A stretch of DNA of 64,000 nt. Source: a bacterium (GTDB taxonomy: Bacteria; Bacillota; Clostridia; Lachnospirales; Lachnospiraceae). Numbering within the stretch: the first letter of the stretch is position 1; each line of letters begins with the position of its first letter. Of the stretch, positions 28,853 through 30,663 are shown piece after piece. The position numbers and the translations under genes were made by a program. The DNA lies in assembly GCA_023664305.1 (NCBI GenBank), contig JAMPFT010000015.1, positions 1-64,000 of the forward strand, read 5' to 3'. The notes under the pieces were generated by a model. The model had not been told where the DNA came from. It did not search any database and saw only the letters and a program-made list of their open reading frames with translations.

Positions 28853-29653
28853 TCAACACTTTTTATACATATCCTCGCATCCCTCAAACATCTGTCCGAT
28901 AATGGCGACCAGAACATTTTTCACAATGCTGTTTCCTGCCTGCTTATAAAGCTGGGTATTGGAATTGACCTCTTCCGCTTTCAAAAAATCTTTGTCCGAA
29001 AATCCCATAAGCCGCCAGCATTCAAGCGGAATCAGCTTTCTGATGCGGATATAATAAATATATTCCCCATCCTCATAGGCAAGCGTATAGGAATCCTCAC
29101 CGCTTTCTATCCGGCACAGCCCTCCAGTCTCGCATTCCGCATAGCCTTTCCTGGTTGCCTGGTTTACCTGGATAACGCCGAAGGTTCCGCAATGGGTAGA
29201 AGATATATTGCCGTTCGCTGTTATCGTTCCGCACAGGCTGTCCTCCCGTACTTTCTCATTGTAGAAATCATATAAGGTTTCCATGACAAGATTGTCCTTT
29301 TGAACGCTGGTCAGGCAATTACAGATTCCCTGCTCATTTACTTCAAGCCGCTGCTCTGTCGGGATGCCTGCAGTTCTGTCTGAAGGATTCTCCGGGTTCC
29401 TGCCCCTCATGGCAACAATCACGCCCTCATACCCTTTTCCGCTCTTAAGATTCTCCATCACGTTCCGCTCACTATTCTTATAATAACTTGCCCGGATTGT
29501 GCCGGACACATCCACCACCAAAGGCTGCTGATTGCCGCCCTGGTAGGTACGGATTGCCGGAGACAGCGCATCCAGATCATAAACATTCCCGGCATAGTTG
29601 CCGCCGTCAAAGCCGTACAGATTCCCTATCTTTACTTCTCTTTCCTCTCCCAT
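28853..29653 (-). CDS. C5 cytosine methyltransferase, C-terminal part (motifs IX-X)
   Basis: 266 residues. The last 60 (RKLIPLECWRLMGFSD, then YKQAGNSIVKNVLVAI) are motifs IX and X of Dcm-like methyltransferases. The preceding 200 residues look like target-recognition repeats, with phrases such as VYDLDALSPAIRTYQGGN and GTITANGNISS. All catalytic motifs I-VIII are in the neighbouring gene in another frame; the two overlap by 22 bases. The ATG has only a weak RBS (GGGGTGA). Split C5 enzymes that work as two chains are known (M.AquI), but this could also be a frameshifted single gene. Confidence 0.75.
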   Translation of the reverse strand: MGEEREVKIGNLYGFDGGNYAGNVYDLDALSPAIRTYQGGNQQPLVVDVSGTIRASYYKNSERNVMENLKSGKGYEGVIVAMRGRNPENPSDRTAGIPTEQRLEVNEQGICNCLTSVQKDNLVMETLYDFYNEKVREDSLCGTITANGNISSTHCGTFGVIQVNQATRKGYAECETGGLCRIESGEDSYTLAYEDGEYIYYIRIRKLIPLECWRLMGFSDKDFLKAEEVNSNTQLYKQAGNSIVKNVLVAIIGQMFEGCEDMYKKC

Positions 29654-30663
29654 TCAATCACCCCATTTCCCGGCTGATTCCCGAAGCCTTTATAATCCCT
29701 CGCCAGAAGCGTGGTCGCCATCTCCGTTTCCCGGTTGAACACAGACCCTTTCCCATTCAACAATACCGTTGCCTGTCCTTCCTCTATTGCTGATTCCGCG
29801 GTCCTTTGCGGTAACGCAGTTTGCGGCGGTGATAGTTCCCGGCTGGCTGATGGAGAGGTCAACAGATGCCCTCTGTCTGTCTGTCTGTCTGTCTGTCTGT
29901 CTGTCTGAAGGATTCTACCACTTGTAATCAGGGAGTCAACCAAATTTTTTACTTTTTCGCCCCGAAGATAATATTTTTCATCAACCTCATTCTCCAGATA
30001 ATCATTCATGACCTTTGTAAGCGGCATAGGCTCCGGGAAAGCAAAATTGCCGCCGCCCAGGATAGAAACACAGAAGCACCTTACCCGGTTCTGCGCAACC
30101 CCGAAATCCTTTGCGTTCAAGTCCTGCCAAAAATTTTGATAGCCTTTCCCGGAAAGAAAATCAAGCCATTTCTGGAAATCCGGCATATTCTTTTTCCCAT
30201 GGACCTGCGGCACATTCTCCATGAGAAGCACCTGCGGCAGAATCTCCGTTTCATTCAAAAGCCGCTCAACCTCCCACAAAAGCCCCGACCTTGTGCCGCT
30301 CCCCTTTGCCATCCCTGCCCCTTTTCCGGCAACGCTCAAATCCTGGCATGGAAAGGAATATGTCAGAAAGTATGTATAATTCCATGGTTCTACTATCCCT
30401 AAATCCGCACCGCGCATCTGCCGGATGTCAACAAGCTCAAAATTTGTTCCGTGGATTGCATTGTAGCTGGCAACCGGGTACTTATCAAATTCCACCAGGC
30501 GGTAATGCTCAAAAGGCACACCCAGCTCCTTGAATGCCATAGCCTGGGAACCGATGCCGCCGAAAAGCTCTATCAGCCGGACGGGCTTCCTGATGCGGAA
30601 CGGCTTACGGCTGAGATCCCATAGCGTAAGCTGCCCCGAAATCTCAATCTTTTTCTTTCCCAT
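29632..30663 (-). CDS. C5 cytosine methyltransferase, N-terminal part (motifs I-VIII)
   Basis: 343 residues from ATG 30663, chosen for AAGGAG at 7-base spacing. RLIELFGGIGSQAMA is motif I (AdoMet binding), SFPCQDLS the catalytic Cys motif IV, LLMENVPQVHG motif VI and GVAQNRVRCF motif VIII. After residue 240 the frame enters a CAGA repeat (QTDRQTDRQTDR) and then a Ser/Pro/Gln-rich stretch unlike the family, before LLARDYKGFGNQ...GNGVIEW restores a target-recognition look. Motifs IX-X are missing and lie in the next gene. The repeat makes this a candidate phase-variable methyltransferase. Confidence 0.8.
   Translation of the reverse strand: MGKKKIEISGQLTLWDLSRKPFRIRKPVRLIELFGGIGSQAMAFKELGVPFEHYRLVEFDKYPVASYNAIHGTNFELVDIRQMRGADLGIVEPWNYTYFLTYSFPCQDLSVAGKGAGMAKGSGTRSGLLWEVERLLNETEILPQVLLMENVPQVHGKKNMPDFQKWLDFLSGKGYQNFWQDLNAKDFGVAQNRVRCFCVSILGGGNFAFPEPMPLTKVMNDYLENEVDEKYYLRGEKVKNLVDSLITSGRILQTDRQTDRQTDRGHLLTSPSASRELSPPQTALPQRTAESAIEEGQATVLLNGKGSVFNRETEMATTLLARDYKGFGNQPGNGVIEWERKEK
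29873..29907 (-). repeat. Tetranucleotide repeat tract in the methyltransferase gene
   Basis: 35 bases of CTGT on the plus strand (eight full units plus CTG), i.e. CAG(ACAG)8 in the coding direction, translated QTDR three times. A unit of 4 changes the reading frame with each gain or loss. One frame stops within five codons; another reads NCVTAKDRGISN and GNGIVEW, which resembles a C5 target-recognition domain. Confidence 0.85.

Follow-up and report, generated by a model that had tools for sequence, protein, structure and literature searches.

A CAGA repeat before frame-separated modules of a two-gene prophage C5-cytosine methyltransferase: a candidate phase-variation locus

Why would a prophage C5-cytosine methyltransferase be encoded by two overlapping genes, with a perfect tetranucleotide repeat placed where its catalytic domain ends? 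This question is raised by a 64,000-nucleotide (nt) stretch of a Lachnospiraceae genome (GenBank assembly GCA_023664305.1, contig JAMPFT010000015.1, positions 1 to 64,000; hereafter the window), in which two overlapping minus-strand genes, called alpha and beta, span positions 28853-30669. We favor the explanation that this is a contingency (phase-variation) locus in which slippage at a CAGA repeat chooses between alternative recognition modules or turns the enzyme off, and we assign this reading a probability of roughly 0.6. The features concerned are collected in Table 1.

Alpha and beta together are a C5-cytosine methyltransferase (PF00145/TIGR00675), as judged by motifs I-VIII in the first and motifs IX-X in the second, and methylation activity is predicted from this. 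Alpha matches PF00145 (E value 2.2e-43, residues 31-244), PHROG 116 (DNA methyltransferase), and TIGR00675 (dcm, 6.9e-33). It carries LIELFGGIGSQ, SFPCQDLS, MENVP, and QNRVRC, segments that we take to be those bearing the customary motif names, and the PCQ and ENV columns are conserved in the alignment of relatives. The C-terminal part of beta matches PF00145 positions 269-323 (E 1.5e-9). The split falls in the variable region and leaves motifs IX-X in the second gene, as in enzymes of the M.AquI type. Because beta starts at 29653, inside the end of alpha, as a separate overlapping gene, no reading frame joins motifs I-VIII to motifs IX-X in one polypeptide. The architecture suggests that alpha would need beta for activity and would associate with it.

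The window holds no other tetranucleotide array with at least five perfect copies besides the CAGA tract, and CAGA runs of 16 nt are expected 0.00 times per window (100 dinucleotide shuffles). The tract itself is free of stops in all frames. In the present frame, a Ser/Pro/Gln-rich filler is followed by LLARDYKGFGNQ..GNGVIEWERKEK and a stop at 29632-29634, with a module C core that reads ..TTLLARDYKGFGNQ..GNGVIEWE. One additional unit would place NCVTAKDRGISN..GNGIVEWE (module B) behind the catalytic domain, followed by 19 codons without a match and a stop at 29690-29692, 36 nt short of beta. With one unit fewer, translation would run into a stop after three whole codons. We also considered the filler as a conserved domain and rejected this as the main interpretation: the same DNA, when read in the B frame, has matches in unsplit enzymes, and its variation is highest at the third positions of that frame. 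A 17-nt exact repeat connects 29375-29391 in beta with 29900-29916 at the edge of the tract and may indicate where the tract originated.

An earlier reading of the letters of this DNA (the first-pass annotation) had placed motifs I, IV, VI, and VIII in one frame and motifs IX-X in a second gene, and the open reading frames (ORFs) and PF00145 matches bear this out. Its (CTGT)8 tract is the same array, with CTGT x8 at 29873-29904 within 29872-29907, and the three frames read as it had described: Ser/Pro/Gln-rich and then GNGVIEW at present, GNGIVEW with one unit more, and a stop with one unit fewer.

Table 1. Positions of the features of the alpha/beta locus within the window (aa, amino acids; TRD, target-recognition domain)
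Feature	Position	Strand	Basis or remark
Alpha gene, present frame: motifs I-VIII, CAGA tract, filler, module C	29632-30669	-	345 aa ORF
Alpha catalytic domain, residues 31-244	29938-30579	-	PF00145 and alignment of relatives
Perfect (CAGA)9 tract	29872-29907	-	9.0 perfect TCTG copies on forward strand; follows catalytic domain
Module B, RASVDLSISQPGTITAANCVTAKDRGISNRGRTGNGIVEWE, frame reached by one unit more	29750-29872	-	Match to L143 236-273
Filler, mostly module B DNA in present frame, Ser/Pro/Gln-rich, RGHLLTSPSASRELSPPQ..	29731-29874	-	Corresponding fillers in L002, L004
Stop of third frame (OFF), three whole codons past tract, reached by one unit fewer	29859-29861	-	
Module C, ETEMATTLLARDYKGFGNQPGNGVIEWE, present frame	29647-29730	-	Weak match to L143 slot
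Shine-Dalgarno-like GGGG, 7 nt upstream of beta ATG	29661-29664	-	Within codons for NGVIEW of module C
Beta gene: further TRD-like modules and motifs IX-X	28853-29653	-	266 aa ORF; overlaps alpha end by 22 nt
Motif IX-X part of beta, RKLIPLECWRLMGF ... QLYKQAGNSIV	28886-29125	-	Beta residues 177-256

The tract differs in length between copies of this locus that otherwise match. A second genome of the same genus, G065, carries it on a 17,891-base contig with 12 units instead of 9. The two sequences align in blocks 23524-27266 (3,743 columns) and 27212-41247 (14,048 columns) of the window, about 17.7 kb, with 0 mismatches; the G065 contig has 100 N between the blocks (an assembly gap), and a detailed alignment places the only gap within the blocks, of 12 bases, at the CAGA tract. 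This otherwise matching locus with 12 copies is L083/L103/L191. Replication slippage would be the probable cause of such a change. Among 138 genomes of the genus, the whole locus was matched by its own genome and G065 only, and 25 others gave short matches, mostly to CAGA runs; the catalytic domain is matched at 100% by JAMPAC010000057.1, from the metagenome-assembled genome Blautia sp. NALB_7811_2. The best result among 392 genomes of the order was 70% identity over part of the locus. Viral contigs searched with the exact tract flank gave no match and no further lengths of the window's allele, and those searched with the beta gene gave no relatives.

What modules B and C might be is suggested by relatives in which the enzyme is not split. 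In one of these, L143, no tract was found, and the order is catalytic domain, B, modules as in beta, and motifs IX-X. Module B of the window matches L143 236-273 (53% identity, E 4e-12), directly before the part matched by beta (271-450, E 5e-66), and a piece of module C matches 244-275 (41%). In the unsplit L102 (Dulem virus 39), B aligns at 319-357 (44%, E 8e-10) and C at 331-357 (E 0.008), so a segment is shared. B and C therefore resemble alternative versions of a single slot, with weak support for C from any single comparison. Several TL-like modules lie in the region between the catalytic domain and motif IX, and their reading of DNA is putative. When 20 unsplit relatives are combined into a profile, it aligns to the solved 4dkj/8c56, which we take to be the CpG-specific M.MpeI, along the catalytic domain and then from just before GPTLTASGANS to near the end; the TL-type segment shortly before motif IX therefore lies at the variable region of that enzyme. 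A TL consensus has been described for the recognition domains of C5 enzymes (PMC2413257).

Based on these features, we propose that the enzyme would be made as two polypeptides: alpha, with motifs I-VIII plus one recognition-type module, and beta, with further modules plus motifs IX-X, whose ribosome site might be concealed within the final codons of alpha's module. At the joint of the catalytic domain and the first module lies the CAGA tract, where replication slippage that gains or loses units would set the frame. Three outcomes are predicted: B is attached; B is passed as filler and C is attached, which is the present state; or translation ends immediately (OFF). If B and C are indeed two versions of one slot, the switch would probably change the methylated sequence in addition to silencing the enzyme, with B and C conferring different specificities.

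Whether the same arrangement recurs was addressed with loci from a first scan, a genome family search, two scans with the catalytic-domain alignment (the best 80 from each), and one phage record. Of 248 loci, the window included, 16 without a catalytic-end match and 15 without motif IX within 3.5 kb were left out; 232 match the catalytic end, 217 of them also with motif IX in reach, and 189 are distinct after identical ones are merged (the window and L191 included). Loci were called split when no single open frame contains both parts (126 loci) and unsplit otherwise (63). Repeats were counted from a minimum of 8 bases for mono-, 12 for di-, 15 for tri-, 14 for tetra-, 15 for penta-, and 18 for hexa- and heptanucleotide units, and both these thresholds and the module patterns used below are our own definitions.

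A repeat lies between the catalytic domain and motif IX in 96 of the 126 split loci compared with 1 of the 63 unsplit loci (Fisher 1.3e-25); for clusters at 80% DNA identity, the values are 78/106 and 2/55 (3.7e-19). Repeat density in split loci is 1.87 per kb in this interval versus 0.24 per kb elsewhere, and the unsplit interval has 0.05 per kb. The total of 199 repeats compares with a mean of 28 and a maximum of 39 in 20 sets of Markov-1 sequences. L116, the one unsplit locus with a repeat, has an in-frame CAGA tract, and its gene is continuous to motif X and passes an out-of-frame B-type module. Decay of prophage genes is common, and split and repeat could together be marks of a degenerating or assembly-broken gene, a view to which the mostly metagenomic origin of the split loci lends some weight. 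We consider this very unlikely, given that the catalytic motifs are intact, that the split and an overlapping second gene recur, and that tracts are concentrated in one interval. Likewise, a matching copy exists in a second genome, and relatives reside in six named Streptococcus prophages, with annotation as two genes in all four of the regions inspected.

The repeat units of the family include G, C, A, AG, AT, and GT as well as 4-, 5-, 6-, and 7-mers. None of the 199 interval repeats has a triplet unit and two are hexamers, which is weak evidence because triplets and hexamers are also rare elsewhere (2 and 4, respectively, or 6 of 217). Multi-nucleotide non-triplet tracts, hexamers excluded, are T-free on the coding strand in 57 of 59 cases versus 15 of 34 elsewhere, and stop-free in every frame in 59 of 59 versus 33 of 34. 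The number of tracts per split locus is zero in 30 of the 126, one in 35, two in 36, and three to seven in 25; L153 carries six tracts with six different units, L223 carries six G9 tracts, and L226 carries AACG7 plus six G runs. One alternative is that the repeats are mainly recombination seeds that shuffle recognition modules, with frame switching as a side effect. This would suit the tracts found between module-like segments in L153 and L223, and the 17 nt of beta that recur at the left edge of the tract. However, 44 of the 61 multi-nucleotide tracts are found no more than 165 nt from the catalytic end and not between all modules, early modules are kept in different frames (see below), and triplet units are absent, the last being the weak evidence just mentioned. 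We therefore give this alternative very little credence.

Of the 93 split loci with at least one of the two module types, 39 have both, compared with 1 of 16 such unsplit loci (strict patterns, three frames, first 200 codons); with loose patterns, the values are 41/104 and 2/33. In the 39 split loci, early modules of the B or G type are out of frame with module C in 37 cases (32 of 34 clusters). A tract near the catalytic end is present in 28 of these loci; their catalytic frame leads into C in 9, into B/G in 7, and into neither in 10, with one same-frame case and one stopped. Third codon positions, counted in each module's own frame, account for 47% of substitutions in B (44 loci) and 63% in C (71 loci).

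Length variation is also seen among relatives. In 9 of 13 near-identical groups (at least 98% identity, not identical, at least 700 columns, mononucleotide runs of at least 7 counted), tract length differs: L016/L017, L025/L027, L029/L042, L037/L052, L055/L056/L057, L120/L121, L128/L129 (a T run), L159/L160, and window/L191. L120 and L121 have 0 mismatches between them, and the former (GA18) reads module C, whereas the latter (GA16) meets an early stop and was scored as neither; among relatives, this is the pair of matching copies that differs in reading state. The tract or the overlap might instead serve programmed frameshifting, ribosomal or transcriptional, by which a constant proportion of alpha is fused to beta, as the several frame changes within one gene region could suggest. 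We rate this as the least probable of the explanations considered here, since both unit and length differ among near-identical or related loci and beta has its own ATG. In addition, CAGA, CAGAG, AG, and the like are not classical slippery sites.

These results also bear on the remaining proposals of the first-pass annotation. It had regarded the frame with one more unit as target-domain-like, and methyltransferase homology is indeed found there, in the matches of B to L143 and L102. Tract length, which it had proposed to examine, is not fixed (9 versus 12 units in G065, and differences in 9 of the 13 groups). Its suggestion that tetranucleotide slippage could switch the enzyme off or change its recognition part gains support from the length variation, the homology in both frames, and the family as a whole; the change in recognition is one that we infer from sequence.

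The hidden start site predicted for beta has parallels in the family. A C-type pattern is present in 81 of the 126 split loci with a looser definition, and 72 are usable with a stricter one. In 56 of these 72, an ATG-started frame of at least 40 codons lies in another frame in or next to the end of module C, and 39 of the 56 have a Shine-Dalgarno-like tetramer upstream of that ATG. In many loci, the window included, the codons for the module end (N/T)GV(I/L)E also serve as the ribosome site and the start. One split Streptococcus-phage enzyme, that of Javan172, was scanned for tracts and gave three A7 runs only. As a separate observation, ..VHN stands right before C(Q/T)DLS in L013 and L015, which looks like the end of an intein at the catalytic cysteine.

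Several points weigh against the favored explanation. The two lengths known for the window's allele, 9 and 12 units, differ by three units, and thus the same frame is read in the window and in G065, so these copies share one state. The match of module C to its slot is weak (E 0.003), with a weaker second match in L143 (E 0.21), and because the alignment of beta (281-520) spans the B/C segment of L102, module order differs in that enzyme. The third-position excess of module G is weak (41%, 17 loci). Since 28 of the 106 split clusters have no tract, the split does not need one. Four of the 13 near-identical groups show no tract difference in the aligned part (L046/L063, L154/L157, L165/L166, and L208/L210); the one indel of L046/L063 is outside the tract, and the first tract of L208/L210 has 16.4 versus 8.4 units, yet the alignment is gap-free. 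The loci are mostly metagenome assemblies, in which the lengths of mononucleotide runs may be erroneous. Matched control windows, placed at other stops within the same loci, yield such overlapping frames in 45% of cases and a Shine-Dalgarno-like tetramer in 39%, and the excess of overlaps and ribosome sites is real but modest, less than twofold over this control. Finally, the B frame, with its unmatched tail of 19 codons, stops 36 nt before beta, and B could be a relic whose frame is simply OFF.

This last point is the core of the main rival, a plain ON/OFF switch in which the C frame, coupled to beta, is the sole active one, the other two frames are OFF, and module B is a displaced remnant of the ancestral slot. 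Of the window's three frames, the C frame alone overlaps the beta start at its end, and ON/OFF switching is the form described for the polyG tract of the phase-variable gene cj0031 in the available excerpts on that gene. However, the protein sequence of B is kept in its own frame, as its third-position share indicates, the catalytic frame of relatives enters B/G nearly as often as C (7 and 9 of 28 loci), and B/G occurs without C in 8 of the 63 unsplit relatives. We therefore regard a plain ON/OFF switch as unlikely, although it is the competitor to be taken most seriously, and continue to prefer a choice between modules.

Extending this preferred reading, the family might represent a widespread class of phage C5 methyltransferases whose modules lie in alternating frames with stop-free repeats between them. 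Slippage at one to seven tracts would pick the module set, giving many specificities per lineage, as a slippage counterpart of hsdS shuffling, with L153, L223, and L226 as extremes. We offer this generalization tentatively and lean slightly toward doubting it.

Each component of this system has precedents. Bacillus phages such as SPR have multispecific C5 methyltransferases, which carry several recognition domains between motifs VIII and IX in one continuous frame. In those enzymes, all domains are present at once, whereas the modules of the window are separated by frame. The split of M.AquI falls in the same region, and activity is possible in C5 enzymes that are split; among C-terminal fragments of M.SssI, those that complement best begin between motif VIII and the recognition domain (PMC3404938). 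Like M.AquI, other C5 enzymes consist of two polypeptides, but no repeat or alternative modules are described for any of them in the available portions of that report (PMC3404938). Repeat-driven phase-variable methyltransferases include those of type III mod genes and the type IIG cj0031 of Campylobacter jejuni (PMC4889913; PMC13076061, PMC11868660). As in the window, slippage of a short repeat inside a methyltransferase gene shifts the frame, but those are bacterial enzymes, as far as the excerpts extend, whereas in the window two frames of a phage C5 enzyme each hold a module, and the family has many repeat units. A prophage-encoded methyltransferase, PamA, is mentioned in the excerpted text of the same sources, not as phase-variable (PMC4889913, PMC13076061, PMC11868660). 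A frame-transition survey classifies phase-variation clusters in prokaryotic genomes (PMC3711429). Among the entries listed from open-licence PubMed Central, no phage C5 enzyme was found that has repeats or whose recognition modules are separated by frame, and publication elsewhere is possible. Each component of the system is known singly (C5 enzymes that are split, methyltransferases that are phase-variable, and phage C5 enzymes with several domains), and their combination in a widespread phage family was not found in the open literature.

Phase variation is usually associated with bacteria, in their surface structures and restriction-modification genes, and a family of phage enzymes from the gut appears to employ it here. 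One possibility is that a phage population could carry several methylation patterns at once and so meet hosts with different restriction systems, the benefit being varied phage methylation against host restriction. Alternatively, the prophage could alter the methylome of its host and thereby modulate the lysogen. Phase variation would also explain why such genes appear fragmented, and the corresponding search rule is a non-triplet, T-free repeat at a domain joint.

The surroundings of alpha and beta are those of a prophage, with genes for a terminase large subunit, a ParB/DNA-methyltransferase protein, and a primase/helicase. CAGA tracts also occur in other phage genes. At least 120 viral stretches have at least 7 CAGA units, and of the 120 listed, 23 have a same-strand C5 methyltransferase at the expected place within 2.5 kb, 49 have a same-strand PAPS-reductase-like gene within 1.2 kb, and 48 have neither, 19 of these 48 lying no more than 300 bases from a sequence end. 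For AGAGC units (50 stretches), the counts are 7 with a C5 methyltransferase and 2 with a PAPS-reductase-like gene. Thus, C5 enzymes are one class of tract carriers, neither the only nor the largest one. PAPS-reductase-like phage genes with CAGA tracts, often after a ..GYPFISKEVSECVYGARKYLT-like segment, include L386 8376-8882, L294 3066-3632, L350, L336, L383, and others, with PF01507 in 5 of 5 tested; these genes make up another class of phage genes that are candidates for phase variation, larger than that of the C5 enzymes. A PF01507 gene is also present in the window (33520-34719), without such a CAGA tract.

In other genomes of the genus, type I specificity (hsdS) genes carry CAGA tracts of 7 to 26 units, either inside the gene or at its joint (L085, L087, L088, L094, L096, and L101). 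PF01420 was confirmed for L085, L088, L094, and L101, and L087 and L096 are assigned to hsdS by resemblance only. These genes share the repeat unit and apparently the join/disjoin logic of the methyltransferase locus, but belong to a different protein family. A 23-unit CAGA tract is also present in a reverse-transcriptase-like gene of a viral contig (L316 2167-2794), with PF00078 upstream of the tract. Elsewhere in the window, adjoining repeats of a 7-mer (8.4 copies) and a 9-mer (9.9 copies) at 60077-60211, just upstream of a minus-strand ABC-transporter ATPase gene, are a possible second length-variable site.
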